Below, one piece after another: positions 4,068-23,429 of a DNA stretch of 26,456 nt (position 1 is the first letter of the stretch; each line of letters begins with the position of its first letter). The translations under genes and the position numbers were made by a program. Below the pieces are notes generated by a model. That model saw nothing but the letters and a program-made list of their open reading frames with translations, did no database searches and was not told the origin of the DNA. The stretch lies in IMG/VR virus record IMGVR_UViG_3300028557_001125, positions 1 through 26,456 of that record; one strand, written 5' to 3'. Source of the stretch: a virus.

Positions 4068-4076
4068 TGATATAAT
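4068..4076 (+). promoter_or_regulatory. Extended -10 promoter before the Cas4-like gene
   Basis: TGATATAAT lies in the 26-nt gap between genes. The extended TG and perfect -10 are seen directly; no good -35 is present. The predicted start near 4083 leaves a leader of about 10 nt containing AAGGATG before the ATG at 4093. Confidence 0.6.
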
Positions 4077-4092
4077 AGATAAAAAGGATGAT

Positions 4093-4926
4093 ATGACTAA
4101 AAACTTGCTGAAAAATATAATGATAAGGCCTGAAGATAGACCGCAGATTATTGACACAAAGGCCTTGATAGAAAAGATTAATTCTGGATACGTTGCAAAG
4201 CGTGGTCCGAAACATACTCAAAAGAAAACTTTTGCTCCATCTACTTTGGTTTGGGGTCATGGAGAATGTCCAAGATATTGGTATTTTGCTTTTGAGGGGA
4301 ACATATTTGAAGATAATAACACGCCATATGGTGTAGCAAATATGACCAGTGGAACACTTTCTCATGACAGAATTCAACAGGCAATGATGGATTCTGGGGT
4401 AGCAAAAAAGTTTATTGATGAAAAGGTTCTTGAAGAAACTGGAAAAGAAGTAGAGACTACAGAGTTTAAAGTTACTCACTCTGATCCACCAATCTTTGGA
4501 TGGGGAGACGCTATTCTTAATTGGGAAGAGGAAGAAATTATTGCTGAAATCAAGACAATGCAACATGATGCCTTTGAACATTTTAGAGTAAAAGGTGAGC
4601 CAAAAACTGGACACCTTATGCAGTTATTGATATATATGAAAATATTAAAAAGGGCTAAGGGTGTTCTGATTTATGAAAACAAGAACAATCATGAACTTGT
4701 TGTATTTCCTATAGAGGTAACAGATCTTTATAGACAATGGATTGAAAATACATTTGAGTGGATGCGTGTTGTTCGTCAAGCGTGGAAAGATAAGACTTTA
4801 CCACAAAAAAATTACAGGGCTAACTCTAAGATATGTAAGGGTTGTCCAGTAAAGGCTATTTGCGCTACTGCAGAGCCAGGAGTTATTAAAATAAAATCTA
4901 TGGAGGGGCTGAGTGAAACTGTGTGA
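4093..4926 (+). CDS. Cas4/RecB-like PD-(D/E)XK nuclease with iron-sulfur cysteines
   Basis: A 277-residue protein with the full Cas4-type layout. Cys59 (GECPRYWYF) is the lone N-terminal cysteine. His91 (SGTLSHDRI), Asp139 (GWGDAIL), Glu152 and Lys154 (IIAEIKTM) and Gln177 (HLMQLLIYM) form the PD-(D/E)XK active site and QxxxY-like motif. Cys248, Cys251 and Cys257 (CKGCPVKAIC) complete a probable [4Fe-4S] site. Proteins of this family resect single-stranded ends; no cas1/cas2 or CRISPR array is near, so a recombination role is far more likely than spacer acquisition. It has its own promoter at 4068-4076. The last 14 nt overlap the next gene. Biochemical polarity cannot be inferred. Confidence 0.85.
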   Translation: MTKNLLKNIMIRPEDRPQIIDTKALIEKINSGYVAKRGPKHTQKKTFAPSTLVWGHGECPRYWYFAFEGNIFEDNNTPYGVANMTSGTLSHDRIQQAMMDSGVAKKFIDEKVLEETGKEVETTEFKVTHSDPPIFGWGDAILNWEEEEIIAEIKTMQHDAFEHFRVKGEPKTGHLMQLLIYMKILKRAKGVLIYENKNNHELVVFPIEVTDLYRQWIENTFEWMRVVRQAWKDKTLPQKNYRANSKICKGCPVKAICATAEPGVIKIKSMEGLSETV

Positions 4927-5203
4927 AAGATGCGATAAGCGCTTTCAGCCAAAGGTAACTTATCAAATATATTGTAGTACAGAGTGCAGAGACTCTGCTA
5001 CAAAAGATAAGATTGCCGAAAGGTACAATGTTTCTCGCAGGCAAAAAAGAATAGGCAAGATTCGTAGATGTCTTGGTGGTTGTGGAGTACAACTATCAAT
5101 ATACAACGACTCTGGATTCTGTTCTAATTGCAACGTAAGCCAAAAGGCAGTAGAAAAAATGATAAAAGAACTTAAAGGAATAATTGATTATGAGCAAGAC
5201 TAG
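4913..5203 (+). CDS. Double zinc-ribbon small protein
   Basis: A 96-residue protein with two cysteine sets: Cys4/Cys7/Cys21/Cys25 (CERC and YCSTEC) and Cys53/Cys57/Cys70/Cys73 (CLGGC and CSNC), separated by a very basic linker (SRRQKRIGKIRR). Two treble-clef or zinc-ribbon sites with a basic middle point to nucleic-acid binding, though the target is unknown. It starts with GTG at 4913 behind GGAGGGG (4903-4909), overlapping the Cas4-like gene, and its end overlaps the RuvC-like gene, so the three are probably translated together. Comparable small YCSxECR proteins are frequent in phages. Confidence 0.72.
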   Translation: MKLCERCDKRFQPKVTYQIYCSTECRDSATKDKIAERYNVSRRQKRIGKIRRCLGGCGVQLSIYNDSGFCSNCNVSQKAVEKMIKELKGIIDYEQD

Positions 5204-5753
5204 TCAACCAGCAAATATTTGTGCTATTGATGCCAGTACTAATAGTCTTGCCTTTGCATTTTATACAAACAAAACCATAACTGGATTTGGAAAAATAAAC
5301 TTTGAAGGTGCAAACATATATCAAAAAGTAATAGATGCTACTGCTAAGACTAAGGCATTGTTTGATCATTATAATATGATTAATGCTATTGTTATTGAGC
5401 ATACCGTTTTTATGAATTCTCCTAAAACTCAGGCAGACCTTGCATTAGTTCAAGGTGGGATAATAGGTGGGGCAGGAATTTCTGGTATAAAAAAAATAGC
5501 AAGTGTTTCTCCAGTAGAATGGCAAAATTTTTTAGGAAATAAAAGACTTACAAAAGAAGAGCAATTACAATTAAGATCTCTTAATCCTGGCAAATCATTG
5601 TCATGGTATAAATCATATGAGCGTGATTTTAGAAAACGTAGAACAATTAAACTACTAGAAATAGCATATGATAAAAAAATAGAGGATTATGATGTGGCAG
5701 ATGCCGCTGGAATAGGACATTGGGCCTGCAATACCCATAAAGAAATATTTTAA
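5190..5753 (+). CDS. RuvC-fold (RNase H-like) resolvase
   Basis: A 187-residue protein with the RNase H-like arrangement of RuvC: Asp14 in the first strand (CAIDASTNSLAFAF), Glu70 at the end of a later strand (AIVIEHTVF), and Asp168/Asp171 in a C-terminal helix (YDVADAAGIGHW). This triad cleaves four-way or branched DNA in cellular RuvC and in phage relatives. A basic stretch (YERDFRKRRTIK) could contact DNA. I prefer the ATG at 5190 over the TTG at 5184 because AAGGA at 5175-5179 is about 10 nt away. The gene overlaps the zinc-ribbon gene. With the Hjc-like protein at 3460, the phage would carry two different resolvase folds. Confidence 0.75.
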   Translation: MSKTSQPANICAIDASTNSLAFAFYTNKTITGFGKINFEGANIYQKVIDATAKTKALFDHYNMINAIVIEHTVFMNSPKTQADLALVQGGIIGGAGISGIKKIASVSPVEWQNFLGNKRLTKEEQLQLRSLNPGKSLSWYKSYERDFRKRRTIKLLEIAYDKKIEDYDVADAAGIGHWACNTHKEIF

Positions 5754-5774
5754 TGTTACCAAGACTATATATAT

Positions 5775-5782
5775 GGTATAAT
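5775..5782 (+). promoter_or_regulatory. Extended -10 promoter, leaderless HNH gene
   Basis: GGTATAAT preceded by T at 5774 gives TGGTATAAT. The -10 hexamer (5777-5782) ends 6 nt before the ATG at 5789, so the expected start point is the A of the start codon. No clear -35 is seen. Confidence 0.65.
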
Positions 5783-5788
5783 GGTGCC

Positions 5789-6391
5789 ATGAGAATAAAA
5801 CTTGAAGATCCACCAATAGGCAAGGTATTTGGAGATCTTACAGTACATAAGGTATATTCTATAAAAGATACTTACGGCTATATTATTAGGGTTGTAGATC
5901 TTATTTGTAAATGTGGCTCTATTGTAAAGAAAAAAAGGCTTGGTCATTTATATGGTACCCCTAAAAAATCTGGAATTAAAAGTTGTAATGAATGCGGTTT
6001 TATTAATCGTGGCAAAAGTAATAGAATCTATACAGATAGTCAAGCAAAAAATGCTGTTTACGGTAGGTATAAAAGTAGCGCAAAACAAAGAAACATAGAA
6101 TGGGATATTTCCAAAGAAGATTTTTTTTTAAAAATATCTTTACCATGTGTTTATTGTGATAACAAAGAAACATCTTTTTTTACTGCTCCAAAATCTTCTC
6201 CATGGTCAAAATCTTTTAAATTTACTGGGTTAGATAGAGTTGATAATGCTTTGGGATATACTATAAAAAATGTTCAGCCATGTTGTAAGTGGTGTAATTA
6301 TGCAAAAAGCGATAGAGATGAAAAAGATTTTGAAAACTGGATATTGCGTGTAGCAAATAAAATTAATAGTACAAGGATTGACAGGGAGTAA
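5789..6391 (+). CDS. HNH homing-type endonuclease
   Basis: A 200-residue protein in two parts. Residues 8-75 carry a GKVFGDLTV start and a zinc ribbon (C40/C42 and C66/C69), a module often seen at the front of phage HNH or AP2 proteins. Residues 88-180 hold the nuclease: a YKSSAKQRNIEW helix, CVYC (120-123), the core FTGLDRVDNALGYTIKNVQP (Asp149, Asp152, Asn153, Asn161) and CCKWCN (165-170). Such enzymes nick or cut DNA and often spread as homing genes. It has its own leaderless-type promoter and sits as a separate cassette between the resolvase and the small regulator. The coding DNA is especially A/T-rich, with a run of nine or more T near 6121. A longer start at 5753 would include the promoter and is rejected. 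Confidence 0.85.
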   Translation: MRIKLEDPPIGKVFGDLTVHKVYSIKDTYGYIIRVVDLICKCGSIVKKKRLGHLYGTPKKSGIKSCNECGFINRGKSNRIYTDSQAKNAVYGRYKSSAKQRNIEWDISKEDFFLKISLPCVYCDNKETSFFTAPKSSPWSKSFKFTGLDRVDNALGYTIKNVQPCCKWCNYAKSDRDEKDFENWILRVANKINSTRIDRE

Positions 6392-6393
6392 TC

Positions 6394-6549
6394 ATGGGTG
6401 CTAGAATGTATCAAAATGAATTATGGCTTAAGAAGAGGTATCACATGGACAAAAAAAGTCCAGAAGAGATAGCAAAAGAATGCGGTGTAAGCATAGAAAC
6501 AATCTATGTTTACCTTGCAAAATTTAAACTAAGGAATTCAAGACGATGA
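6394..6549 (+). CDS. Small helix-turn-helix protein (51 residues)
   Basis: A 51-residue gene that fills the gap after the HNH gene: ATG at 6394, with GGGAG at 6384-6388, and TGA at 6547-6549 overlapping the next ATG. The sequence reads as a basic helix (ELWLKKRY) followed by SPEEIAKECGVSIETIYVYL, a standard helix-turn-helix with A, G and I/V at the expected turn positions, and a basic tail (FKLRNSRR). It lies just upstream of DUF3310 and the terminase genes. A small DNA-binding or terminase-accessory role is plausible, but it could also be a leftover DNA-binding module related to homing endonucleases. Its reality is supported by tight spacing on both sides. Confidence 0.65.
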   Translation: MGARMYQNELWLKKRYHMDKKSPEEIAKECGVSIETIYVYLAKFKLRNSRR

Positions 6550-6791
6550 ATAATAAGTTTAATATTACAGTAGACCAGGTAAATCATCCTGCACACTATA
6601 CAACAGATCCATCTGGTGTTGAGTGTATTCAGATAACTAGGCATAGAAACTTTAACATTGGAAATGCAATAAAATATCTTTGGAGAGCAGGAATTAAAGA
6701 TGAAGCCAAACACATTGAAGATTTAAAGAAAGCAATATTTTATATTCAGGATGAAATCAATAGACTAGAGGGAAAATATGTCAGACACTGA
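6546..6791 (+). CDS. DUF3310 family protein
   Basis: An 81-residue protein matching the DUF3310 pattern found in many phages: VNHPAHYT, GVECIQIT, then FNIGNAIKYLWRAGIKDE and a DLKKAIFYIQDEI helix. The biochemical function of this family is not established; some members are labelled nucleotide kinase-like without good support. The gene overlaps its neighbours at both ends (ATGA with the helix-turn-helix gene; its last 14 nt with the next gene), so it is part of the pre-terminase operon. Confidence 0.85.
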   Translation: MNNKFNITVDQVNHPAHYTTDPSGVECIQITRHRNFNIGNAIKYLWRAGIKDEAKHIEDLKKAIFYIQDEINRLEGKYVRH

Positions 6792-7317
6792 AATTGAATT
6801 AGTTAAACATCTTGATGAAGTGAATAAGGTTGTTGAAGAATATCTAAAGGGTCATGATCCGACTAAGATATCTAAAGATCTTGCTATTCCAAGAACTCGT
6901 GTAGTAGCACATCTAAATGAGTGGAAAACTATGGCGTCTGCAAACGATGCTATTCGTGCTCGTGCAAAAGATGCACTGGTCGCAGCAGATGCACATTACA
7001 CAAGACTAATACAGCAGGCCTATGAAGTTATTGATGATGCAACAACTACAGCAAACCTGACTGCTAAAACTGGTGCAATTAAACTTGTAATGGATATTGA
7101 GGCAAGAAGAATTGATATGCTACAGAAGGCTGGTTTGCTAGAAAATAAAGAATTAGCAGAAGAGATAGTTGAAATTGAAAAGAGACAAGAAGTTCTTGTT
7201 GGCATTCTTCGTGATATCGCTTCTGAGCATCCAGAGGTTCGTGACTTAATAATGCAAAGATTATCTGCAATTGCCAAAAATGGGGAAGTGATTACAGTTG
7301 TCCACCAAGTTCAATGA
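6778..7317 (+). CDS. terS: Putative terminase small subunit
   Basis: A 179-residue protein with an N-terminal helix-turn-helix (DPTKISKDLAIPRTRVVAHL, residues 27-46) followed by long helices rich in Ala, Glu and Lys, the usual organisation of small terminase subunits: DNA recognition, oligomerisation helices, and a C-terminal part contacting the large subunit. It directly precedes and overlaps the large subunit gene, which is the main support. The helix-turn-helix would bind the packaging site in the concatemer. Start ATG at 6778 follows GAGGGAAA. Assignment rests on context and architecture, not on a strong sequence signature. Confidence 0.65.
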   Translation: MSDTEIELVKHLDEVNKVVEEYLKGHDPTKISKDLAIPRTRVVAHLNEWKTMASANDAIRARAKDALVAADAHYTRLIQQAYEVIDDATTTANLTAKTGAIKLVMDIEARRIDMLQKAGLLENKELAEEIVEIEKRQEVLVGILRDIASEHPEVRDLIMQRLSAIAKNGEVITVVHQVQ

Positions 7318-9079
7318 TTTCTTTGAAGCCCTTCAAGATAATCAATTTGATGAAAATCCTGTAGACGCAAAGACCTTTGTTGAGTCTCCAGACTTTCTAA
7401 ATCAACCGCCATTGTCTGCCATTCAATATGATATTGTTGAAGCAATGAGCCAGATCTATCGTAAAGAAGATTTGCAAATGTTGATGGGGCATGAAGAGGG
7501 CGACAAACATTTTGCTAAATATACTAAGAATGAGATTATTTTACAACTAGGAAAGGGTAGTGGAAAAGACTTTGTATCTACTGTTGCTTGTGCCTATGTT
7601 GTTTATAAACTTCTTTGCCTTAAAGATCCTGCGAGGTATTATGGAAAACCAAGTGATGATGCCATAGATATTATCAACGTTGCTATTAATGCTGAGCAGG
7701 CTAAAAATGTTTTCTTCAAAGGTTTTAAAACTAAGATTGAGAAGTCTCCATGGTTTGCTGGAAAGTATGATCCAAAGGTAAACTCTATTGGTTTTGATAA
7801 ATCTATTACCGTTTACTCAGGTCACTCTGAGCGTGAATCACACGAGGGTCTTAACTTATTTATGGCGGTACTTGATGAAATTTCTGGCTTCGTTACAGAA
7901 GTAGGAACAGGAAATGATCAGGGTAAGACTGCTGACAATATATATAAAGCATTTAGAGGTACAGTAGACTCTCGTTTTCCAGATCTTGGCAAAGTAGTTC
8001 TTCTTTCATTTCCTCGCTACAACGGCGACTTCATTTCAAAACGGTATGAAGATGTAATCATGGAAAAAGATGTAATAGAGCGTAGATATAAGTTTGTTAT
8101 TAATGAAGAACTACCAGAAGGACCAGATAATGAATTTGAAATAGTATGGGAAGAAGACCATATTAAATCATATAAATACCCCAGAATGTTTGCACTTAAA
8201 AGACCTACATGGGAAGTAAATCCTACTAGAAAGATTGATGATTTTAAGATTGCATTTTTAACTGATATAGGTGATGCAATGATGAGATTTTTATGTACCC
8301 CAACATATTCATCAGATGCTTTCTTTAAGCAAAAAGATAAATTAGAAAAATGTATGACATTAAGAAATCCTATAGATAATCACAGAAGGTTTGATGCTGG
8401 TTTTAAACCAGATCCAGAAAAAATATATTATATCCATGCTGACCTTGCACAAAGACATGATAAGTGTGCTGTTGCTATCGCACACGTTGAACGCTGGGTA
8501 AACATTCAAGTAATTAAAGATTACGAGCAGGTAGCGCCAATTGTTATCGTAGATGCCGTTGCTTGGTGGGAACCAAAGGTAGAGGGTCCTGTAGATTTAT
8601 CTGAGGTTAAAAAGTGGATACAGAATTTACGTAGAGAAGGTTTTAACATTGGCATGGTCACCTTTGACCGCTGGCAGTCCTTTGATATTCAGCAGGAATT
8701 AAAAGCGGTAGGCATAAAAACAGACACTGTTTCTGTTGCCAAAAAACACTATGAAGACCTAGCCATGATGATATATGAAGAGAGAATTGCAATGCCCATG
8801 ATTCCCTTATTGCTTGAGGAGATGAGTGAACTTAAAATTATGAAAAATAATAGAGTTGATCATCCACGCAAGAAATCTAAGGACTTGGCAGATGCCGTTT
8901 GTGGGGCGGTATTTGGAGCAATATCCCATACAAGTAAGGACTCTAATCTAGAAATTGAGGTTCATACTTGGAGTTCTGCCAGCCGACTTGCGGATAAGCA
9001 GAGGGCTATGGTAGAATTGGATAACAAGGAGATTCCTGAAGATATTCAGGAGTTTCTAAATGAATATAAACTAATTTAA
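7298..9079 (+). CDS. terL: Terminase large subunit
   Basis: A 593-residue packaging motor: an N-terminal ATPase and a C-terminal RNase H-like nuclease. Residues 84-92 (LGKGSGKDF) form the Walker A, residues 188-195 (LFMAVLDE) the Walker B with Asp193/Glu194, and SFPR near 237 the coupling-motif region. The nuclease part shows Asp382 (IHADLAQRHDKCAVAI), Asp457 (VTFDRWQS) and Asp532 (KDLADAVCGAV). The start is TTG at 7298, with GGGGAAG at 7282-7288, overlapping the small subunit by 20 nt; no ATG fits better. Residues 70-80 lack a typical Q-motif. The next gene encodes a secreted protein, not a portal, so head genes lie elsewhere. Confidence 0.92.
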   Translation: MSTKFNDFFEALQDNQFDENPVDAKTFVESPDFLNQPPLSAIQYDIVEAMSQIYRKEDLQMLMGHEEGDKHFAKYTKNEIILQLGKGSGKDFVSTVACAYVVYKLLCLKDPARYYGKPSDDAIDIINVAINAEQAKNVFFKGFKTKIEKSPWFAGKYDPKVNSIGFDKSITVYSGHSERESHEGLNLFMAVLDEISGFVTEVGTGNDQGKTADNIYKAFRGTVDSRFPDLGKVVLLSFPRYNGDFISKRYEDVIMEKDVIERRYKFVINEELPEGPDNEFEIVWEEDHIKSYKYPRMFALKRPTWEVNPTRKIDDFKIAFLTDIGDAMMRFLCTPTYSSDAFFKQKDKLEKCMTLRNPIDNHRRFDAGFKPDPEKIYYIHADLAQRHDKCAVAIAHVERWVNIQVIKDYEQVAPIVIVDAVAWWEPKVEGPVDLSEVKKWIQNLRREGFNIGMVTFDRWQSFDIQQELKAVGIKTDTVSVAKKHYEDLAMMIYEERIAMPMIPLLLEEMSELKIMKNNRVDHPRKKSKDLADAVCGAVFGAISHTSKDSNLEIEVHTWSSASRLADKQRAMVELDNKEIPEDIQEFLNEYKLI

Positions 9080-9095
9080 ATAAACAAGGAGAAAA

Positions 9096-10217: not shown

Positions 10218-10236
10218 TTAACAAATTAAGGAATAG

Positions 10237-10265
10237 GGCGCAGAGAAATCTGCGCCTTTTTCTTT
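10237..10265 (+). terminator. Intrinsic terminator after the secreted protein gene
   Basis: A perfect 8-bp stem GGCGCAGA / TCTGCGCC (10237-10244 and 10249-10256) with a GAAA tetraloop is followed by TTTTTCTTT. It lies 19 nt after the stop at 10217 and directly before a new promoter. Confidence 0.9.
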
Positions 10266-10278: not shown

Positions 10279-10287
10279 ATGATTAAC

Positions 10288-17020: not shown

Positions 17021-17268
17021 AAACTGTATACTACTTTACTGCAGAGTGGTGTCAGCCTTGTAAAAAAACAAGACCAATAGTTGAAAAACTAAATCATGAT
17101 CAACAAAATGCTCTTTTTCAAATAATTGATGTAGATGATTCTGGAGATCTTGTTAAACATTTTGCAATAAATTCTGTACCTACTTTTATTTTACTTGAAG
17201 ACGGTATAGAAAAAAATAGAATCATTGGTGCTCAAACACAAGATCAGTTGGAGAATTTTATAAAATGA
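17017..17268 (+). CDS. Thioredoxin-like protein
   Basis: An 83-residue single thioredoxin fold with the redox pair WCQPC (Cys12, Cys15) and cis-proline motif VPTFILL. It is shorter than E. coli thioredoxin (108 residues), resembling compact phage glutaredoxin/thioredoxins. Likely roles are reduction of a phage or host ribonucleotide reductase, or general disulfide reduction; no reductase gene is in the window. It overlaps genes on both sides (4 nt each), making a three-gene unit with the nuclease and the next protein. Confidence 0.9.
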   Translation: MKTVYYFTAEWCQPCKKTRPIVEKLNHDQQNALFQIIDVDDSGDLVKHFAINSVPTFILLEDGIEKNRIIGAQTQDQLENFIK

Positions 17269-17600
17269 ATGACGAAAATAATGATATAGAAAAATTAGTT
17301 CTTTCGGGAGGCCTTGAGGTCGCTGGTGTAGATTCAGATACTGGGGAACTTCTGTATACCTTTACGCCTAAAATGAAAAAAATAAATGTTCAGTTATATA
17401 ACGATCATTTAACCTTCGTTAACTCTGAAATTATGGGGCTGTGGGAAAAAGGGTTTGTAAATGTAGACCTTCTACTTGAGGAGCCCATAGTCAAGTTAAC
17501 AGATAAGGCTTTTCTAGATGAAGAACTTAATAAACTAACAAAGCAGCAGAGATGGTCTTTGGAGGAAATCAAACGGCTTCTTAAGAGCCGAGAAGTCTGA
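17265..17600 (+). CDS. Conserved phage protein of unknown function
   Basis: A 111-residue protein: an acidic start (NDENNDIEKL), a beta region GGLEVAGVDSDTGELLYTF, a helix with FVNSEIMGLWEKGFVNVDLL, then LTDKAFLDEELNKLTKQQRWS and a helix ending KSREV. I recall this pattern (GLEVxGxDxxTGE ... EIMxLWexGFxxxD) in other aquatic actinophages, without a function. The mixed fold resembles a small winged-helix protein. It is the last gene of the nuclease/thioredoxin unit; a fresh promoter overlaps its end. Confidence 0.68.
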   Translation: MNDENNDIEKLVLSGGLEVAGVDSDTGELLYTFTPKMKKINVQLYNDHLTFVNSEIMGLWEKGFVNVDLLLEEPIVKLTDKAFLDEELNKLTKQQRWSLEEIKRLLKSREV

Positions 17601-17606
17601 TATAAT
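17598..17606 (+). promoter_or_regulatory. Extended -10 promoter, leaderless multidomain gene
   Basis: TGATATAAT, with the hexamer at 17601-17606 ending 6 nt before the ATG at 17613; TGA is also the stop of the previous gene. No clear -35. Confidence 0.68.
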
Positions 17607-17612
17607 CTTATT

Positions 17613-18857
17613 ATGCCATATCGTGTAGGTGCTAAGGGTTCGTACGGTTGTTCTGGATACCCTGCTTTAAAAGAGGGTACAAATGAAGTCATGGGCTGTC
17701 ATGAAACTCGTGGACAGGCATCAGCACAGATCTATGCTATAAACCAATCTGAGGGCAATATAGGCAAGAATATGCACACTCTTAAAGAGGGTGACTTTGT
17801 TATGGGTACTACAACAGAAGGTCTTGTTCATGGAATGATTGAACATATAATGACTGAAGGTGGAACTCTTGGAACTCCTGGAACTAGGTATGCTATTGAG
17901 TCAATGCCACCAGAGAACCCTGCCATGTCTGTTAGAATTTATGAAGAAAAAGATAGTGGTTGGGAGCCAACTGCTTATAGTATCGGAATGATGTATGTAA
18001 ATGCAGAAAAAATAGATATTGAAACACATAGTATGGATGGCGAAGAAACAATGAAATCTTATCATTCAGACAATGAAGATGAGGATAAATGGGACAACAT
18101 CAGCAAGGCTTGCTGGGTAGGATATGAGCAGCAAGGTATGAAAGAAAAAGATGGAAGAATGGTTCCTAATTGTGTTCCAATTGGAAAATCTAACGAAATT
18201 GACAAAGCAAAAAGCGTATCTGTTGGAGACCACGTAATGTTTGGTGTTCCAAAACCACCAGACAAGACAGAATCTGCACATGGGGTTGTTGAAAGAGTTG
18301 AAAGATCAGGAACTGTAAAACTTCCTGGAACTAACGAAAGTATTGAAGCGTCTTCAGATAATCCAGTTGCTGTGGTTAGGGTTTATGCAACTGATGAAAA
18401 TGGCAAGAGAACAAGAACAGACAGGCGTGTTGCTAAACCATTTAGTTCTTTAAGAGTTGTAGATCAGCCAATTGATAATGACAAGATGTATCATGATGAT
18501 GAAGAAGATGATGAAATGATGAAGGCATCTGCAAAAATTGAATCAAGACTAAGAGAATTGGTAACAACCTATAATAAGGGTAAAGAAGGTAATAAAAAAA
18601 TAACCGTGGGAACATTAAGACAGGTTTATAGTCGTGGAATTGGTGCATATAGGACTAACCCTTCTTCAGTTCGTGGAAATGTCGCAAGTGCAGAACAGTG
18701 GGCAATGGGTAGAGTAAATGCATTTATGGCTGGTCTTCGTGGCAGATTCCCAAGAAAAGCATTTGATTTAGACTTATTCCCAAGCGGACATCCAAGATCC
18801 ACAAAGAAATTTGATTGGTCTGGATCAGTCTTTGATTTAAAAACTTTTAGGAAATAA
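17613..18857 (+). CDS. Multidomain phage protein with duplicated GDxVM module
   Basis: A 414-residue mosaic. Residues 13-45: CSGYPALKEGT, MGCHETRGQASAQIYAIN, a Cys-containing motif. Residues 57-110 (LKEGDFVMG ... PAMSVRIY) and 202-258 (VSVGDHVMF ... PVAVVRVY) are two copies of one beta module sharing GDxVM, a central HGxxExxxxxGT, PGT and P-A-VRxY. Between them lies CWVGYEQQGMKEKDGRMVPN (167-186). Residues 330-385 (TLRQVYSRGIGAYRTNP, QWAMGRVNAFMAGL) form a basic helical domain that I recall in phage virion or maturation proteins. A structural or prohead-associated role is inferred from those recollections; no enzyme motif is certain. The start is set by a promoter 6 nt upstream. Confidence 0.6.
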   Translation: MPYRVGAKGSYGCSGYPALKEGTNEVMGCHETRGQASAQIYAINQSEGNIGKNMHTLKEGDFVMGTTTEGLVHGMIEHIMTEGGTLGTPGTRYAIESMPPENPAMSVRIYEEKDSGWEPTAYSIGMMYVNAEKIDIETHSMDGEETMKSYHSDNEDEDKWDNISKACWVGYEQQGMKEKDGRMVPNCVPIGKSNEIDKAKSVSVGDHVMFGVPKPPDKTESAHGVVERVERSGTVKLPGTNESIEASSDNPVAVVRVYATDENGKRTRTDRRVAKPFSSLRVVDQPIDNDKMYHDDEEDDEMMKASAKIESRLRELVTTYNKGKEGNKKITVGTLRQVYSRGIGAYRTNPSSVRGNVASAEQWAMGRVNAFMAGLRGRFPRKAFDLDLFPSGHPRSTKKFDWSGSVFDLKTFRK

Positions 18858-18858
18858 C

Positions 18859-18996
18859 ATGTCGTCTGGAAAATATAAAAGACACGATTCTTTTAATGCA
18901 GTTCAAATTAAAGACGGAATGATTGTTCGTCTTCGTAAAGATGGAACTTTAAAAGCAGTTCTTGGAAAATATGGAGAAAAGAAAAATGGAAAGTAG
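18859..18996 (+). CDS. Tiny basic protein (45 residues)
   Basis: A 45-residue gene in the short gap after the multidomain protein: ATG at 18859 one base after the TAA, stop at 18994-18996 overlapping the next start. It reads MSSGKYKRHDSF then VQIKDGMIVRLRKDGTLKAV, a KOW/SH3-like beta hairpin with alternating basic and hydrophobic residues, and a Lys-rich tail. TTAGGAAA at 18848-18855 may serve as a weak ribosome-binding site. It is too short to classify. Supported by tight fit, in-frame length and coding-like composition. Confidence 0.5.
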   Translation: MSSGKYKRHDSFNAVQIKDGMIVRLRKDGTLKAVLGKYGEKKNGK

Positions 18997-19393
18997 AACA
19001 AAGGTAGTGCAGCCAGCAGATATGCACAAAGAAGAAACATATACACCAACCTCTGGAATGAAGGCAGCAGCACGTCGTGCATTGCGATGGAAAGCCGAGG
19101 GTAAAGCCAAAGGAGCAGGAACTCCAGTAGGATGGGGACGTGCAACAGATATTGTTGCTGGTAGAGCAATGTCTCTTTCTACCGTAAAAAGAATGTATTC
19201 TTTCTTTTCCCGTCATGAAGTTGACAAAAAGGGAAAAGACTTCTATAATAGTAGTAATCCTTCAAATGGTCGCATAATGTGGGACGCATGGGGAGGGGAC
19301 GCTGGATTTTCCTGGTCACGTAAAATTGCAGAACGTGAAAGAAATAAAGCAGTAAAGGCCTGGGAAGGTAGCGCATTTAGTACTAGGGGGTAG
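18986..19393 (+). CDS. Conserved basic phage protein (unknown function)
   Basis: A 135-residue, Arg/Lys-rich protein with long conserved-looking blocks: TPTSGMKAAARRALRWKAEG, GTPVGWGRATDIVAGRAMSL, RMYSFFSRHEVDKKGKDF and WDAWGGDAGFSWSRKIAERE. I recall the same blocks in many cyanophage and aquatic phage proteins, sometimes fused to protease or portal-linked proteins, but I know no function. The Trp/Gly/Asp-rich end with basic helices suggests nucleic-acid or capsid contact. The ATG at 18986 is chosen because GGAG at 18973-18976 is 9 nt upstream; starts at 18962 and 18971 are poorer. It overlaps the tiny gene before it. Confidence 0.7.
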   Translation: MESRTKVVQPADMHKEETYTPTSGMKAAARRALRWKAEGKAKGAGTPVGWGRATDIVAGRAMSLSTVKRMYSFFSRHEVDKKGKDFYNSSNPSNGRIMWDAWGGDAGFSWSRKIAERERNKAVKAWEGSAFSTRG

Positions 19394-19396
19394 TAC

Positions 19397-19576
19397 ATGG
19401 AAGACTTGGGTATTGAAGAAATTAAACAAATTGTTACTTTCTACAAACAAAGAGCATCAGATTTAGAGTTGTCTAATTTGCAGTGGCAGTTGAAGTATAA
19501 CAAACTACTTTTAAATAACTCTCAGCCAGTTACAGCAACAAAGGTAACTGCTGAAAGAAAAACCAAATCTGAATAA
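19397..19576 (+). CDS. Small coiled-coil protein (59 residues)
   Basis: A 59-residue protein that fills the gap between two larger genes (ATG 19397, TAA 19574-19576). It is one charged helix, EEIKQIVTFYKQRASDLELS then LQWQLKYNKLLLNN, with a leucine heptad pattern, followed by a Thr/Lys-rich tail. Short coiled-coil genes of this type are common in tailed phages near structural genes. The start follows the previous stop by 3 nt with AGGGGG at 19385-19390 as a ribosome-binding site. Function is unknown. Confidence 0.6.
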   Translation: MEDLGIEEIKQIVTFYKQRASDLELSNLQWQLKYNKLLLNNSQPVTATKVTAERKTKSE

Positions 19577-19581
19577 TCAAA

Positions 19582-19998
19582 ATGGAATATGGGATTATTG
19601 GTGCGTTGGCACTGGCGTTTTCTTTTTTAATTATTTACTGGATTGGTCTGAAAAGAAAAATATCCAATAAAAGGGTGATCTATCGTCAAAGTGATACCCA
19701 TGCATTTTTAAAAGAATTTTTTTCAAGACAAATATCTCAAACAAAAAAGAAATCTCAACTTGAGCAAAGAAAAGAATCTCAGAGCACAAAAATAATTATT
19801 ACAGAAGACGATATAGCATATTGGGTATCTGATAATATTTTTTTAAGTACTGATGTAATTGACGGCAGACCAGATTTTGAAAACGCAAGACCAGTAGATA
19901 CTTCAAGTATGTCCAAGAAAGAACTTGACAAAATGCTTTTTATACTGGATAATTTAGGTAGGGGTGATAAGAATGAACGTGGTAGTTCAGGGAACTAG
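19582..19998 (+). CDS. Single-pass membrane protein of unknown function
   Basis: A 138-residue protein with one N-terminal membrane segment (GIIGALALAFSFLIIYWIGL, residues 4-23) followed by a basic stop-transfer region (KRKISNKR), so the body faces the cytoplasm. The rest is a Lys/Gln-rich helix (35-68) and a small mixed domain: IIITEDDIAYWVSDNIF, then FENARPVDTSSMSKKELDKM. No motif I can name; the ending recurs in phage proteins I recall without function. It overlaps the next gene's start region by 26 nt. Confidence 0.65.
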   Translation: MEYGIIGALALAFSFLIIYWIGLKRKISNKRVIYRQSDTHAFLKEFFSRQISQTKKKSQLEQRKESQSTKIIITEDDIAYWVSDNIFLSTDVIDGRPDFENARPVDTSSMSKKELDKMLFILDNLGRGDKNERGSSGN

Positions 19999-20323
19999 CG
20001 ATTTTGATGAATACAATGTATTCCTTCGTGCTATGGGTGTAGCAATGTCCAGCATGAAAGAAGCAGATGAGTATTTCTATGTTTATTCTGTAGGCCCTGC
20101 CAGAATTAACTCAATGGTTTCTGAGTTCTGCAATCTGTCAGAACGAGGAATGAAGGCCAGAGGTAAAAAAATAAAGTATTACAAGGTGCCATTTTCTTGG
20201 GTTGAGGAGAATATGGATGACATGGACTACTTTGCCTTTTTAAGTAAACCAAAACAGGCTGTGTCAAAATTAATCGCAAATGCAGAATTAAAGGGTAAAG
20301 AAGTGGGGATATTTAGATACTAA
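19973..20323 (+). CDS. Putative Rossmann-like (SLOG-type) protein
   Basis: A 116-residue alpha/beta protein beginning VVVQGTSDFDEYNVFL, then EYFYVYSVGPARINSMVSEF and KKIKYYKVPF, then YFAFLSKPKQAVSKLIANAE and a final strand VGIFRY. This strand-helix order, with a G-T-S-D-F turn after strand one and GPARIN after strand two, resembles SLOG/DUF2493-type nucleotide-binding proteins, though the typical GGAxGxD motif is absent. Confidence in that family is low. The ATG at 19973 is behind AGGGG; GTG at 19964 is also possible. It ends in a TAATG overlap with the glycosyltransferase, so the two may function together. Confidence 0.5.
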   Translation: MNVVVQGTSDFDEYNVFLRAMGVAMSSMKEADEYFYVYSVGPARINSMVSEFCNLSERGMKARGKKIKYYKVPFSWVEENMDDMDYFAFLSKPKQAVSKLIANAELKGKEVGIFRY

Positions 20324-21276
20324 TGACAACTCAAGATCCAAGATTTTTTTGTTATAAAGAGGAGTATTTTGGCGGTACTGAATATATGGCCAGACATTTT
20401 CATAAAAATGTGGCTCCGTATGTTCAACAATTAAAAGAATATAACTGCTTGATTCTTCCAGGTCAAACAGATAGGTCCTACTTTGAACTTGTTTATGAAC
20501 CTAAAGAAATAATTATATGGCTTCATAATCTTGTTGATCAATTTGGTTATCAACTTTATTATATATTTACAGATAAAAGGTTTCTTGCTAAAATAAAATA
20601 CATTATAACTGTTTCTGAATATCACAGGCAGGATGTAATAAAGAAAACTGGCATAGATCCAGACAAGGTTCTTGTTATATATAATGCTATAGATCCAGTA
20701 GTAAATGATTTATCAAGGTTTGAAAATGTAAAAGTTCCAGAATTAATATACACATCTTCTCCAGGAAGAGGTTTGGAGATAGGCCTTAAGGCTCTTTCAG
20801 AATTAGATGTTGATTTTAGACTAAGCATATTTAATGAGATTGTTCCAGATTTAATTAAAGCAGACAGTGCTAATAAGAAAATCTTAGAAGATCCAAGATT
20901 TTATTTTTACGGTAAGACTCCACACAAAACGGTTCTAGATCATATGTCTCGTTCTCATATATTTATGCATACGAGCAGTTGGCATGAAACATTCTGTCTA
21001 TCTCTTGTTGAGGGGCTTAGTGCAAACTGTTTATCGGTTTACAGCACATTTGGCTCTCTTAAAGAGGTTGGTAGTGGCTTAGGAATATCATATGATATAG
21101 ATGGTAAAACAGAAAAACAACACGTAGAAATCTTTAAAGAAAAGATAACTACAGCAATTGACATGATCAAAAAGGGAGAATTTGATCCAGGCAGTCAAGC
21201 AGAAACAATAAACAATAAATTTTCCTGGGATGTTTTTAGAAACTCTTGGTTAGATTTTTATGAAAAGAGAATATAA
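20323..21276 (+). CDS. Glycosyltransferase, GT-B fold (GT4-like)
   Basis: A 317-residue glycosyltransferase. The N-terminal half has the GGTEYMARHF loop (17-26) and IIIWLHN; the link region shows ITVSEYHRQDV and VLVIYNAIDP (116-125), typical of GT4. The C-terminal half has YTSSPGRGLE and the E-x7-E motif HETFCLSLVE (Glu222, Glu230) that binds the nucleotide sugar. It is shorter than bacterial GT4 enzymes (about 370). Acceptor and sugar are unknown; phage glycosyltransferases may decorate DNA, virion proteins or host surface glycans. It overlaps the preceding gene and is followed directly by another small gene. Confidence 0.88.
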   Translation: MTTQDPRFFCYKEEYFGGTEYMARHFHKNVAPYVQQLKEYNCLILPGQTDRSYFELVYEPKEIIIWLHNLVDQFGYQLYYIFTDKRFLAKIKYIITVSEYHRQDVIKKTGIDPDKVLVIYNAIDPVVNDLSRFENVKVPELIYTSSPGRGLEIGLKALSELDVDFRLSIFNEIVPDLIKADSANKKILEDPRFYFYGKTPHKTVLDHMSRSHIFMHTSSWHETFCLSLVEGLSANCLSVYSTFGSLKEVGSGLGISYDIDGKTEKQHVEIFKEKITTAIDMIKKGEFDPGSQAETINNKFSWDVFRNSWLDFYEKRI

Positions 21277-21486
21277 ATGGAAATAAAAGATTTAGATTTA
21301 ATGGAAAAAATAGTTAAAAAGTATAAAAACTTAAGTTGGATTGGCTGGGATGTGGTTGATCGTCGCCCTACTCAGGCTGGTAGAACTGCTATTAATGGTG
21401 TTAGGGTCGGTAGTCAATGGTACGTCCAGACAACTTATCCAGTAACAACCAAAGGATGGGATATACCGAATAAGTATAGGATGTAA
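21277..21486 (+). CDS. Small conserved phage protein
   Basis: A 69-residue protein starting on the base after the glycosyltransferase stop. The N-terminal helix (EIKDLDLMEKIVKKYKN) leads to a Trp/Arg-rich beta part (LSWIGWDVVDRRP, INGVRVGSQWYVQTTYPV). The aromatic/basic strand pattern recalls small DNA-contacting proteins, but no family is recognised. The AAGAGAATATAA upstream holds a weak ribosome-binding site. Its place between a glycosyltransferase and WhiB gives no functional clue. Confidence 0.6.
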   Translation: MEIKDLDLMEKIVKKYKNLSWIGWDVVDRRPTQAGRTAINGVRVGSQWYVQTTYPVTTKGWDIPNKYRM

Positions 21487-21488
21487 AC

Positions 21489-21770
21489 GTGAAGCAGCAT
21501 TTATGGAAAGATGATGCCTTGTGTTTGGGATCCGAAACAAACCTTTTCTTTGATACATACGAAGAAAATCCAGAGACTAGAGAGTTCGTAGATTCTTTGT
21601 GTCGTACATGTCCCATGGCAAGAAAGTGTTTTGCAGTGGGGGTATCTGGTAAAGAATGGGGAGTATGGGGCGGAGTATACCTAGAAGATGGCGAGATATC
21701 AAAAGAATTTAATAATCATAAGACTAAAAAAGATTGGTCTTATACTTGGCAAGCATTAACAATGGGGTAA
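21489..21770 (+). CDS. whiB: WhiB-family iron-sulfur transcription factor
   Basis: A 93-residue protein with the WhiB signature: Cys12 (DALCLG), Cys38 and Cys41 (CRTC), Cys47 (KCFAVGV), then GVWGG (58-62). The four Cys hold a [4Fe-4S] cluster and the G[VI]WGG turn precedes the DNA-contacting tail. WhiB proteins are essentially restricted to Actinobacteria and their phages; the mycobacteriophage TM4 version blocks host septation and superinfection. The basic tail after GVWGG is weak here (EFNNHKTKKDW), so it may work through the sigma factor. The start is GTG at 21489, 2 nt after the previous stop, behind AGGAT. Confidence 0.85.
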   Translation: MKQHLWKDDALCLGSETNLFFDTYEENPETREFVDSLCRTCPMARKCFAVGVSGKEWGVWGGVYLEDGEISKEFNNHKTKKDWSYTWQALTMG

Positions 21771-21772
21771 AT

Positions 21773-22003
21773 ATGTATACAGATAATATGCGTAGGGCTT
21801 TTCATTCTATACCAGCGCCAAAAAACTTTGTTATTTCTATTATTGACAACGAGCACTTTGTTACAATAAAATTAGATGAAAGATCTTTTCTGCCTTTAAG
21901 TCATGATGAAAAGATAGATGCAGTAAAGTATGTAACATTAGTTAAGAAGGCTTTGGAAATGGAGGGGGCTATCGTAATGGTAACACGAGAGCCATTAAAA
22001 TAA
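21773..22003 (+). CDS. Small conserved alpha/beta protein
   Basis: A 76-residue protein: MYTDNMRRAFHSIPAPKNFV, two strands (VISIIDNEHFVTIKLDE), FLPLSHDEKIDAVKYVTLVK and a final strand AIVMVTRE. The beta-beta-alpha-beta layout resembles small ferredoxin-like or DNA-mimic folds, but no motif identifies it. ATG 21773 has ATGGGG 5-10 nt upstream and follows the WhiB stop by 2 nt; longer starts would overlap whiB by about 40 nt. The stop overlaps the next start (TAATG). Confidence 0.6.
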   Translation: MYTDNMRRAFHSIPAPKNFVISIIDNEHFVTIKLDERSFLPLSHDEKIDAVKYVTLVKKALEMEGAIVMVTREPLK

Positions 22004-22500
22004 TGCAGACCTTTTTACCATCATCAAACTTTGCAAGATGTGCAGCATTGCTTGATAACAAAAGACTAAATAAACAAATTTTAGAGGGGTATCAGATTCT
22101 TAATGTAAATTCTGGCATGTCAAAAACTGGTGGTTGGCGTAATCATCCAGCAGTTTTGATGTGGAAAAATCATGAGGGGCACCTATTTTATTATATTTCT
22201 GAGATGATCAAAGAGGCAAAAGTTCGAGGAATAAATACAACAGGTAATGAATCAAATATAAATGTCCTAATGGGCAAGGTTGGAGATAGTTGGAACTACG
22301 ATTCACCTTGCTGGATGCTTGACAATAACAAACTTATGCGTGTAATTACAACACATAGGGCAAATTTGTTTAAAAAAGATCCTTTATATTATGCTCGGTT
22401 TCAAAGTTCTATGAATAGTCCTTGGAATAACCCCTGCTGTCCAGATCGTAAAACACCATGTCAATACTACTGGGTAACTCATGAAAGTAGAGTACAATAG
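22003..22500 (+). CDS. MSMEG_6728-like protein (pyrimidine-dimer-glycosylase-related)
   Basis: A 165-residue protein matching the MSMEG_6728 pattern known from actinobacteria and phages: MQTFLPSSNFARCAALLDNK, RLNKQILEGYQIL, GWRNHPAVLMWKNHE and a late HRANLFKKDPLYYARF block. Members are often annotated as pyrimidine dimer DNA glycosylases because of remote similarity to T4 endonuclease V (basic helices plus an N-terminal nucleophile); I see no experiment-backed residue assignment here. If true, it would excise UV dimers, sensible for an aquatic phage. Cysteines in NPCCPDRKTPC near the end may bind metal. Confidence 0.7.
   Translation: MQTFLPSSNFARCAALLDNKRLNKQILEGYQILNVNSGMSKTGGWRNHPAVLMWKNHEGHLFYYISEMIKEAKVRGINTTGNESNINVLMGKVGDSWNYDSPCWMLDNNKLMRVITTHRANLFKKDPLYYARFQSSMNSPWNNPCCPDRKTPCQYYWVTHESRVQ
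22493..22498 (+). promoter_or_regulatory. Possible weak -10 (TACAAT) before the membrane protein
   Basis: TACAAT ends 6 nt before the ATG at 22505, the same geometry as the strong leaderless promoters here. It lacks TG and -35 and lies within a coding sequence, so support is modest. Confidence 0.3.
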
Positions 22501-22504
22501 GTAT

Positions 22505-22936
22505 ATGGACATTCTAACATTAATTCTTGGAATTTTTTCTGTATCTTTTGCTGTTGCATATACACTTTCAGTTTATAGATCAAAAAAATTAACAGAGGCG
22601 TTTGCACAACTTTTAATTTCTCAGGCTCAATTAGAGCAAGCACAAGAAAACTTTTTTAAAACAACGGCAGCAATAAATGATTCGGATGTTCACACTCAAA
22701 ACTTTATAAAATTTTTATCCGATTCTCGTGACTGGGCATTTCAATATATAGAAGAAGTGCAAAATGGTCTACAAAAATTTGTTCAAGAGGTAGAGCCACA
22801 GATTAACCATTACAATAAATATGGGGCTGCAATAGAAGGTACTATGCCACCATATGATATCGCTTTGAAAAAGATTTCAAAGGAGATGGAAGATCTTAAA
22901 AAGTTTCTTCCAGAAGAAACAATTGATAGACGCTAG
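22505..22936 (+). CDS. Single-pass membrane protein with coiled-coil tail
   Basis: A 143-residue protein: membrane helix ILTLILGIFSVSFAVAYTLS (residues 3-22), then a positively charged turn (YRSKK), then a long coiled coil (AFAQLLISQAQLEQAQENFF) and a helical tail with DSRDWAFQYIEEVQNGLQKF and a PPYDIALKKI turn. One transmembrane helix with a cytoplasmic coiled coil resembles membrane anchors or superinfection-exclusion proteins, without proof. The ATG at 22505 follows TACAAT by 6 nt and would be leaderless; a start at 22481, overlapping the previous gene, is the alternative. Confidence 0.62.
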   Translation: MDILTLILGIFSVSFAVAYTLSVYRSKKLTEAFAQLLISQAQLEQAQENFFKTTAAINDSDVHTQNFIKFLSDSRDWAFQYIEEVQNGLQKFVQEVEPQINHYNKYGAAIEGTMPPYDIALKKISKEMEDLKKFLPEETIDRR

Positions 22937-23120
22937 AGGAATTCCAACCTGTACGTGCCCTAATTGTGGAGGGGTACTGTTTAGAGCCTTAGTATCTTTT
23001 GATCCAGAAACCTACACGATAGGAATGTATCATTTAGACATTCAGTGCAATGACTGTGGTGCTTTTGCTACTGCCCCAACTCCGCTAGATAATCCAACAC
23101 AAAGCAATGATTCAATTTAA
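22923..23120 (+). CDS. Small zinc-ribbon phage protein
   Basis: A 65-residue protein with Cys12-x2-Cys15 (CPNCGGVLF) and Cys42-x2-Cys45 (CNDCGAFAT), a classical zinc ribbon whose beta core reads FDPETYTIGMYHLDI. The ending APTPLDNP is recalled from similar phage proteins of unknown function. The start is TTG at 22923, overlapping the previous stop; no ATG is available, so the exact start is uncertain. Possibly a transcription- or translation-associated factor. Confidence 0.65.
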   Translation: MIDARGIPTCTCPNCGGVLFRALVSFDPETYTIGMYHLDIQCNDCGAFATAPTPLDNPTQSNDSI

Positions 23121-23274
23121 ATTAAAAAGTGCAGAAGAAGTTTATGAATACATTTATCCTGTGTGCGAGGTAAAAGACTGTACAAAGGAAAGTAAAAAAT
23201 TGACTTCAACTGAAACAAGATTCGTAGACTTTTGTAAAAAACACTACGAAGATTATATTATGGGGGAGATATGA
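23107..23274 (+). CDS. Small CxxxxC...CxxH protein (55 residues)
   Basis: A 55-residue protein starting at ATG 23107 inside the end of the previous gene and ending at TGA 23272-23274, overlapping the next ATG. It has Cys20-x4-Cys25 (VCEVKDC) and Cys43-x2-His46 (DFCKKHYEDY), a possible zinc site of the DksA/C4-like or HNH-remnant type. The N-terminus (QFKLKSAEEVYEYIYP) is helical. Function unknown. The chained overlaps on both sides are good evidence that it is translated. Confidence 0.6.
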   Translation: MIQFKLKSAEEVYEYIYPVCEVKDCTKESKKLTSTETRFVDFCKKHYEDYIMGEI

Positions 23275-23429
23275 AAGAAATCGTAATGTCCGTTTTAACA
23301 GGTTTTGGATGTGGCTTAATATTTGCTGCATTCAAATTGCCAGTCCCAGCACCACCAGTTTTTGCGGGAGTCGCAGGAATTATTGGTCTTTGGGCTGGTT
23401 ATGCTATACTAATAAAGGTTCTATCCTAG
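23271..23429 (+). CDS. XapX-domain small membrane protein
   Basis: A 52-residue protein with two membrane helices around a LPVPAPPVFAGVAGIIGLWA stretch, the hallmark of the XapX (DUF1427) family, named after E. coli xapX: G-x(n)-LPxPAPPxxAGxxGIxGL. The family function is unknown. GGGGGAG at 23262-23268 precedes the ATG, which overlaps the previous gene. A short length of about 50 is normal for the family. Its place before the holin-like gene suggests a membrane role, unproven. Confidence 0.75.
   Translation: MKEIVMSVLTGFGCGLIFAAFKLPVPAPPVFAGVAGIIGLWAGYAILIKVLS
23402..23410 (+). promoter_or_regulatory. Extended -10 promoter before the last plus-strand gene
   Basis: TGCTATACT (hexamer 23405-23410) with TTGGTC at 23383-23388, 16 nt upstream. 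The start near 23417 leaves a 22-nt leader with AGGAGG at about 23428-23433. It lies inside the XapX gene. Confidence 0.6.

Follow-up and report, generated by a model that had tools for sequence, protein, structure and literature searches.

Boxes resembling TATAAT recur between the closely packed genes of this viral DNA, raising the question of whether they are promoters and, where they lie directly in front of a start codon, whether transcription would begin at the AUG itself. In the window, i.e. the whole analyzed stretch of 26,456 nucleotides, we found all 13 motifs listed in an earlier note (13/13) at their positions: ten copies of TGNTATAMT (4068, 5774, 10270, 12314, 13572, 15232, 15835, 16129, 17598 and 23402), TATACT at 14147 and 16341, and TATAAT at 15735. 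An eleventh TGNTATAMT is on the minus strand (19494), the other ten being on the plus strand. Comparison with shuffled sequence, proposed in the same note, gave a split result: these 11 copies on both strands face a mean of 3.27 and a maximum of 8 in 100 dinucleotide shuffles, whereas TATAMT by itself is no more frequent in the window than expected (50 vs. 52.1), and a loose sigma-70 scan of positions 4000-23999 showed no clear enrichment (80 vs. 69.2, sd 9.8). By our gene list non-coding DNA makes up 641 of the 26,456 bases (2.4%), and the hexamer centre is non-coding in nine of the ten plus-strand extended boxes; the box at 23402 is situated within the 3' end of ORF 23271-23429. It is the strictness of the extended motif and its location that carry the signal. 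The gaps holding boxes measure 26, 35, 96, 17, 65, 15, 66, 123, 123, 29, 15 and 12 nt, so that only 7 of the 13 boxes, rather than nearly all, are in gaps of at most 60 nt.

Five boxes end 6 or 7 nt before an ATG and a sixth ends 9 nt before one, as had been described. These are the predicted leaderless genes, and the near-leaderless one, with counts from orthologues that are not independent of each other:

5774-5791, plus strand: extended -10 TGGTATAAT, 6 nt, ATG 5789 (gene 5789-6391, endonuclease VII/HNH-like); box and spacing seen in the window, the gene having no usable orthologues and standing outside the per-gene conservation counts.
12314-12332, plus strand: extended -10 TGCTATAAT, 7 nt, ATG 12330 (gene 12330-12557, small and lipoprotein-like); 33/36 orthologues have TATAMT with a spacing of 6-7 nt.
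14124-14161, plus strand: -35 TTGACA (14124), -10 TATACT (14147), 6 nt, ATG 14159 of a 67-aa acidic protein; strict in 16/23 orthologues, with TACAAT or TAGAAT at 6 nt, judged by eye, in 6 of the 7 others.
16341-16355, plus strand: -10 TATACT (16341), 6 nt, ATG 16353 of a DUF7455 gene (16353-16613, Pfam), the first of four close-packed genes; 42/47 orthologues.
17598-17615, plus strand: extended -10 TGATATAAT, its TGA doubling as stop codon of the preceding gene, 6 nt, ATG 17613 of gene 17613-18857; 6 nt in 18/27 orthologues.
15835-15855, plus strand: extended -10 TGCTATAAT, 9 nt, ATG 15853, the near-leaderless start of a 91-aa HNH gene; 8-10 nt in 22/23 orthologues.

Hence 5 of 13 boxes (6 of 13 counting 15853) are placed for leaderless mRNAs, not most of them. 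Nor are the genes served uniformly small, as the products of 17613 and 5789 comprise 414 and 200 aa, and the idea of single-gene promoters does not fit the box at 16341, which is followed by four close-packed genes (16353-17600), the last three without a recurrent box. What stands of the leaderless reading in the earlier note is the distance peak, the conservation per gene and the scarcity of Shine-Dalgarno (SD) motifs.

The peak at 6-7 nt, which was to be sought across relatives, is present and sharp. The relatives (1.56 Mb, masked at 90% identity) contain 500 extended -10 boxes, which are followed by an ATG start at 6 nt in 58 cases and at 7 nt in 26, with 0-1 at each distance from 0 to 5 nt. 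Counted by family the numbers are 10 (6 nt) and 4 (7 nt) against 0-2 at every other distance from 0 to 13; the sites come mostly from five families, and of 40 families 25 are singletons, some of them surely due to chance, and one is an artefact. This artefact, an 18-member family with TATAAT at 11926 and an ATG 6 nt further on, was dropped because the TATAAT is the spacer between the SD and the true start of gene 11932. Neither the ATGs of ORFs shorter than 10 codons nor GTG or TTG starts show a 6-7 nt peak with the extended boxes of the relatives, and leaderless GTG/TTG starts were dropped for that reason. Other A/T-rich hexamers used as controls, among them ATATAT, TTATAA and TCATAT, likewise lack such a peak at 6 nt.

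Further features accompany the boxes. Leaderless ATGs are preceded by a pyrimidine (T or C) in 208/227 cases, whereas the base in front of other starts is A in 854/1413, and ATG is used in 132/133 leaderless starts vs. 774/914 SD-led starts. Leaderless boxes without TGN have a -35 matching at least 5 of 6 positions in 55/137 cases, 52 of these at spacer 17, vs. 4.5% of 2662 other boxes without TGN; leaderless TGN boxes have one in 9/82, no more than other TGN boxes (14.5% of 221). By family, TGN or a -35 TTGACA (16-18 nt) is present in 35/42 (12330), 35/35 (14159; here every member having the box has the -35), 34/34 (17613) and 12/12 (zinc ribbon), and in 0/52 members of the largest family, DUF7455, which has neither TGN nor a TTGACA-like box. 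No box recurs in at least 8% of the orthologues, which are not independent, for 30 of the 43 genes tested. SD-like motifs are scarce in the orthologues of 12330 (0.17), 14159 (0.22), 16353 (0.02) and 17613 (0.26, a figure that takes in SD-leadered orthologues) and frequent in those of the leadered genes 4093 (0.75), 13610 (0.88), Hsp20 (0.98) and 23439 (1.0); they are also scarce in the box-less genes 3297 (0.04), 3460 (0.07) and 17017 (0.05). Some orthologues retain the box yet have an SD leader: with looser boxes, the 17613 family divides into 20 leaderless members and 7 with the same box and an SD leader (7/27).

The boxes are thus very probably SigA-type promoters, and the mRNAs of five genes would be leaderless by virtue of a -10 at 6-7 nt. 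The host's primary (SigA-type) RNA polymerase would use them, in most of these gene families aided by the TGN extension or by TTGACA at 17 nt, the latter falling within the coding end of the preceding gene. As the -10 hexamer ends 6-7 nt from the ATG, +1 is proposed to be the A of the AUG, leaving no leader, and the 5'-terminal AUG would then be taken up by the host ribosome for initiation. What the phage probably gains is compactness: a gap of 12-17 nt would house both promoter and start in four of these five genes, so that transcription could restart within a packed gene array.

Boxes adjoining start codons without SD might instead be A/U-rich, unstructured ribosome entry regions rather than promoters. 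This is improbable, as such a region would explain neither the constant distance of 6-7 nt nor the accompanying TGN or -35 at 17 nt; moreover, the box is retained when an SD leader intervenes before the ATG, it also precedes a non-coding RNA, and the A/T-rich control hexamers lack the 6 nt peak. About equally improbable are very short leaders, i.e. real promoters with +1 located 1-4 nt before the AUG or with a misannotated ATG. Small start-site shifts are usual, and the HNH family of 15853 (63 loci with 63 boxes, spaced 6-10 nt, mode 9) would be left with a leader of a few nucleotides, but in four gene families the peak lies at 6 or 7 rather than at 8-10, and the pyrimidine at -1 (208/227) also speaks for a start at the AUG.

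Chance, or conservation of neighbouring coding sequence, could be invoked since TATAMT alone does not exceed its frequency in shuffles and conserved coding sequence flanks the boxes upstream. However, in the window the hexamer follows the stop codon in all four leaderless genes with orthologues, the spacer behind it is more variable in relatives, and the hexamer is retained despite changes in leader length. Chance was rejected on the TGNTATAMT enrichment, the distance peak, the short-ORF control and the non-coding placement; at the sequence level this explanation is largely refuted by the peak, the short-ORF control and the per-gene conservation, and we regard it as extremely improbable.

Besides the leaderless promoters, the remaining boxes pair with other predicted 5' ends, namely SD leaders, a ROSE-like leader and a structured RNA. 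The -35 elements named earlier were recovered, i.e. TTGACG 13552 (spacer 17), TTGACA 14124 (17), TTGTCA 15212 (17) and TTGACA 16108 (18).

4068-4095, plus strand: extended -10 TGATATAAT, 16 nt with SD, ATG 4093 of a Cas4-like exonuclease gene, leadered; 16-18 nt in 17/28 orthologues.
10270-10316, plus strand: extended -10 TGGTATAAT, SD AGGAG, ATA start 10314, leadered; the conserved AUA seems to be the start codon.
13552-13612, plus strand: -35 TTGACG (13552), extended -10 TGGTATACT (13572), 29 nt with SD, ATG 13610 of an HslV-like peptidase gene (PHROG), leadered; 28-30 nt in 27/52 orthologues.
15212-15300, plus strand: -35 TTGTCA (15212), extended -10 TGGTATAAT (15232), putative ROSE-like leader, ATG 15298 of Hsp20.
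16108-16160, plus strand: -35 TTGACA (16108), extended -10 TGCTATAAT (16129), 20 nt with SD, ATG 16158 of a zinc ribbon gene; leadered here, leaderless in 12/66 orthologues.
23402-23441, plus strand: extended -10 TGCTATACT in the end of ORF 23271-23429, 28 nt with SD, ATG 23439, leadered; 28-29 nt in 15/30 orthologues.
15735-15822, plus strand: -10 TATAAT (15735-15740) and structured RNA with predicted limits at about 15745-15822; helix arms 15747-15757 and 15811-15821.

Classification of the Hsp20 leader as ROSE-like is based on UYGCU facing the SD in 50/50 relatives; its score against Rfam ROSE_3 is below gathering (13.5 vs. 43 bits, E 0.61). Folding of the Hsp20 leaders at several temperatures gave no temperature-dependent change and was not counted as evidence.

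Behind TATAAT 15735 lies a conserved, predicted structured RNA. It matched none of the 4227 Rfam 15 families at E ≤ 1 in the window; at E ≤ 5 there was no hit in locus L399 and otherwise only mir-1205 on the opposite strand (E 4.4). A blastn search of phage records gave no copy, and none was found in 100 actinobacterial genomes, the latter search being uninformative without a positive control. An HNH gene stands beside the RNA in 38/38 model hits checked (redundant loci and one cut-off hit lay outside this check), the model itself having been built from sequences upstream of HNH genes. By a sequence-pattern scan, 20 of 78 loci have the RNA but no HNH gene, the sequence of three of them (L452, L476, L511) stopping no more than 40 nt from the RNA; RNA and HNH gene are therefore linked but separable. 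In HNH-less copies with the GTCC mark the box ends 6 nt before the first paired G in 17/18 cases, a hint at start sites at that spot, independent of the leaderless genes. A Y RNA acting with a Ro protein, an idea taken from the annotated Ro-like protein of phage Coruscant, was rejected as TROVE occurs in 0/24 freshwater phage records, many of them fragments; Coruscant has the TROVE-domain protein, and the structured RNA was not found there. With moderate confidence, we take TATAAT 15735 to be the promoter of a stand-alone phage RNA of a new class, about 75-90 nt long, with an 11-16 bp closing helix and the near-invariant core GAUGG-UUAGUUACC. The gene that follows it is usually that of a small HNH endonuclease, in other instances a different and often leaderless one, and the RNA would act in trans in infected freshwater actinobacteria.

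The window appears to belong to a phage of freshwater actinobacteria, and the leaderless placement fits the known habit of these bacteria. Because most hosts of such phages are uncultured, sequence is almost the only way to study gene expression in them; comparison yields gene-resolved predictions of RNA 5' ends, the 17613 and 16158 families provide natural pairs of leaderless and leadered orthologues, cultured relatives (Streptomyces phages) offer test systems, and SD-less starts are prone to misplacement in annotation. DUF7455 relatives in genome contigs are mostly from high-GC Actinobacteria, and a single contig comes from a MAG listed under Chitinophagaceae. Of 396 genomes of the Actinobacteria phylum, 164 contain TGNTATAMT-N6-ATG. 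With ORFs of at least 60 aa, and bacterial contigs chosen for holding a match, TATAMT and ATG pair three times at 6 nt and never at 7 nt in 400 kb of eight such genomes, vs. 37 pairs (one being the 11932 artefact) in 389 kb of four phage records.

Mycobacteria also use GUG for leaderless starts. According to one survey, leaderless ('TA-led') genes, with a TA-rich signal some 10 bp upstream of the start, account for >20% of genes in Actinobacteria, and the phage genes share with them the TA-rich upstream signal and the lack of an SD (PMC3160421); for mycobacteria another report gives about 14% leaderless genes (PMC7148126). Unlike the TA-led genes, the present ones are from phages, have near-consensus boxes and peak at ATG only, not at GTG. 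The sections of the open-licence PMC literature consulted contained no description of these promoters, the structured RNA or the AUA start. The cultured Streptomyces phage Coruscant (Stanwilliamsviridae) shares gene order with the window and has a terminase 52.6% identical over its full length; three of its 54 annotated starts, the ATGs 61856, 75269 and 79665 of MT711976, are at exactly 6 nt from a box, without SD. Strict matches are fewer in Coruscant and Tribute, also a Streptomyces phage of the Stanwilliamsviridae, with 3 and 2 per 133 kb (control 0 and 1). For Cluster O mycobacteriophages, three SigA-like promoters with +1 at the first base of the start codon were described, by prediction only and in five close relatives (PMC4351075). 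The present phages differ from these in offering dozens of relatives, a controlled distance histogram and leaderless/leadered switches between orthologues.

Every motif position given in the earlier note was present as stated in the window, a virus record of 26,456 bases, and the strict extended form TGNTATAMT was enriched, with 11 occurrences versus 3.27 in shuffles and no shuffle reaching 11. Its location is also the one expected of promoters: by our gene list, 9 of the 10 extended boxes on the plus strand are centred in non-coding DNA, which makes up 2.4% of the window. Neither the bare hexamer TATAMT nor a loose sigma-70 scan showed clear enrichment in the window; the promoter claim rests on the form and place of the boxes and not on the hexamer as such. 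The assertion that nearly all boxes fall in gaps no longer than 60 nt proved too generous, as this holds for only 7 of the 13 boxes and one lies within a gene end.

We then measured the distance from the end of the -10 hexamer to the start codon in relatives (loci L003-L269), collected in four viral-contig scans with the terminase, Hsp20, 17613 and 20323 proteins, the first three covering the best 80 matches listed. Stretches more than 90% identical were masked, leaving 1.56 of 3.28 Mb. Of 500 TGNTATAMT sites, 58 have an ATG 6 nt downstream and 26 have one 7 nt downstream, counting only ATGs that open an ORF of 40 aa or more, which confirms the peak expected at this spacing; the counts at 0-5 nt were 0, 0, 1, 0, 1 and 1, and those at 8-14 nt were 4, 10, 6, 1, 1, 0 and 4. 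A second, broad hump spans 16-31 nt and would suit promoters followed by Shine-Dalgarno (SD) leaders. In the control, ATGs opening ORFs of fewer than 10 codons were found neither at 6 nor at 7 nt after TGNTATAMT; GTG starts occurred once at each distance and TTG starts at neither. TATAMT lacking TGN gave the same peak, with 130 cases at 6 nt, including 18 artefactual ones from one family. Counted by family, 10 families of extended boxes have the ATG at 6 nt and 4 have it at 7 nt, versus 0-2 for any other spacing between 0 and 13; for all TATAMT boxes the family counts are 26 and 17, versus 5-15 for any other spacing between 0 and 14, a background that means that single families with the looser boxes may be due to chance.

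Orthologue starts for 45 window genes were taken from the relatives blind to the motifs; 5789 and 10314 had no usable orthologues, leaving 43 genes with 4 to 67 orthologues each.

Box positions recurring among orthologues (genes named by start coordinate)
12330: TATAMT at 6-7 nt in 33/36
14159: TATAMT at 6-7 nt in 16/23
16353 (DUF7455): TATAMT at 6-7 nt in 42/47
17613: TATAMT at 6-7 nt in 18/27
15853 (91-aa HNH): TATAMT at 8-10 nt in 22/23
4093 (Cas4-like), leadered: 16-18 nt in 17/28
13610 (HslV-like), leadered: 28-30 nt in 27/52
23439, leadered: 28-29 nt in 15/30
16158 (zinc ribbon), minority signal: 6 nt in 12/66
3752, minority signal: 41 nt in 6/28
19973, minority signal: 26 nt in 8/56
21773, minority signal: 26 nt in 7/57

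Six of the seven 14159 orthologues failing TATAMT carry, by eye, TACAAT or TAGAAT at the identical 6 nt. For the remaining 30 genes no box position within 45 nt of the start was shared by at least 8% of orthologues, a reach that misses the Hsp20 promoter, which sits 57 nt off. The box in 3 of 4 orthologues of gene 11932 was rejected as an SD-spacer artefact.

Further marks of a transcription start accompany the 6-7 nt spacing. Of 227 such sites, 183 have T and 25 have C at -1, a position taken by A at 854 of the 1413 other starts, and ATG is the start codon in 132/133 members of four leaderless families versus 774/914 SD-led genes (Fisher 4e-8, the orthologues not being independent). TGN is found in 35/42 members of the 12330 family and 34/34 of the 17613 family, a TTGACA-like -35 box in 35/35 of the 14159 and 12/12 of the zinc-ribbon family, and neither in the DUF7455 family (0/52); the two elements tend to stand in for each other among families. 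With boxes scored as TATAMT or TA[GC]AMT, 20 of 27 orthologues of 17613 are leaderless, and in the other 7 an SD leader separates box and ATG. The zinc-ribbon family (n = 66) comprises 12 leaderless members, 46 without box, and 8 in which a leader follows the box, 7 of these leaders having an SD; the window's own gene belongs to this last type. Because both families hold leaderless and leadered orthologues, the box appears to behave in these natural variants as a promoter compatible with either kind of 5' end.

Other 5' ends in the window are built differently:

15745-15822, plus strand: conserved structured RNA behind a predicted promoter of its own (box 15735-15740), with an 11-bp covarying closing helix
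15241-15298, plus strand: leader of the Hsp20 gene, having a hairpin at its 5' end and UCGCU upstream of the SD
10314-10316, plus strand: apparent AUA start of gene 10314, directly after an SD

The structured RNA had no meaningful match in Rfam 15. Its helix was aligned from 49 of 63 upstream regions, setting aside 6 near-duplicates and 8 regions that carry an additional 5' domain, and was unbroken throughout, with two-sided changes in 8 pairs. In a broader set (n = 45) 99.8% of 495 cells were paired, a level partly built in as the selection script admitted only helices of 8 bp or more, and two-sided changes affected 10/11 pairs; none of 500 shuffles matched the paired cells, double changes or covariation, and 7/500 matched the pair types. 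The full collection comprises 113 loci and 93 distinct RNAs, and 17 of 25 long records, many of them chosen for holding the RNA, have it in a single place each. It precedes an HNH gene in 38/38 model matches checked and in 58/78 loci from a sequence-pattern scan, and its core motif lies upstream of 138/142 HNH relatives. In one lineage (L398, L399, L410, L411, L412, L417, L424 and L434) an extra conserved 5' domain, GUCGGGG..GACAGCGAC, was seen by eye on the RNA upstream of HNH. Though mostly placed before the 91-aa HNH gene, the RNA also occurs without it. Where HNH is missing, exactly 6 nt separate the end of the box from the opening G of the RNA's GTCC in 17 of 18 marked cases (3 unmarked), and the next gene's ATG, with any ORF length, lies exactly 6 nt after another box in 12/18. 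In HNH-type loci (n = 89) the box-to-G distance is 6 nt in 25, 7 nt in 12, 4 nt in 11 and 1 nt in 11, with 23 unmarked; in the window it is 4 nt.

UYGCU precedes the SD in the Hsp20 leaders of 50/50 relatives, and the leader's best Rfam match, far under threshold, is ROSE_3; an RNA thermometer in a phage is possible. Gene 10314 encodes a secreted repeat-rich protein, and ATA follows the SD in 18/18 distinct orthologues. In a wider search 20 of 22 homologues had, by eye, no canonical start ahead of the matched part; the divergent L083 appears to use ATT, and L239 TTG. With leaderless, SD-leadered, structured-RNA, ROSE-like and AUA cases within 26 kb, the phage would fix the 5' end individually for each gene.

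The endonuclease VII/HNH-like gene 5789 lies within a stretch of ~650 bp (5726-6375) at an insertion site; the stretch is absent in relatives such as contig L077, in which 25 nt separate the flanking positions 5725 and 6375. In relatives the site is empty or holds other genes. Carried by only three contigs, all identical, the gene has an extended -10 of its own and seems to have arrived together with this leaderless promoter.

The WhiB gene at 21489 (4.8e-11) points to an actinobacterium as probable host. Among the best matches listed, the terminase is 52-53% identical over its full length to those of Streptomyces phages, e.g. Coruscant and Karimac. Coruscant has a similar gene order to that read in the window (DnaE, MazG, RecA, Cas4-like, RuvC-like, terminase), identity having been searched for the Cas4-like gene and the terminase only; the DnaE, MazG, RecA and RuvC genes are what we take them to be from reading their translations. 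In eight long phage records TGNTATAMT-N6-ATG has 30 matches versus 2 for the reversed pattern. The whole Coruscant record has 3 versus 0, and Tribute, another cultured Streptomyces phage, 2 versus 1. Contig L300 (CANGYR010000020.1), filed under a Chitinophagaceae MAG, holds a DUF7455 relative and four such sites, and is perhaps a misbinned actinophage contig.

The main text of two papers on freshwater actinophages contains neither 'promoter' nor 'leaderless' (PMC10202952, PMC6802176). The leaderless-placed boxes are a new, well conserved example of a kind already known. Leaderless genes, described as common in Actinobacteria (PMC3160421, PMC7148126), are predicted in the window phage as well, which shares predicted leaderless promoters with the Cluster O mycobacteriophages, for which three such promoters are reported (PMC4351075). 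With Coruscant it has in common boxes 6 nt before an ATG lacking an SD: in 31.8 kb of that phage the box lies at exactly 6 nt before 3 of 54 annotated starts, all three without SD and one of them that of an HNH gene.
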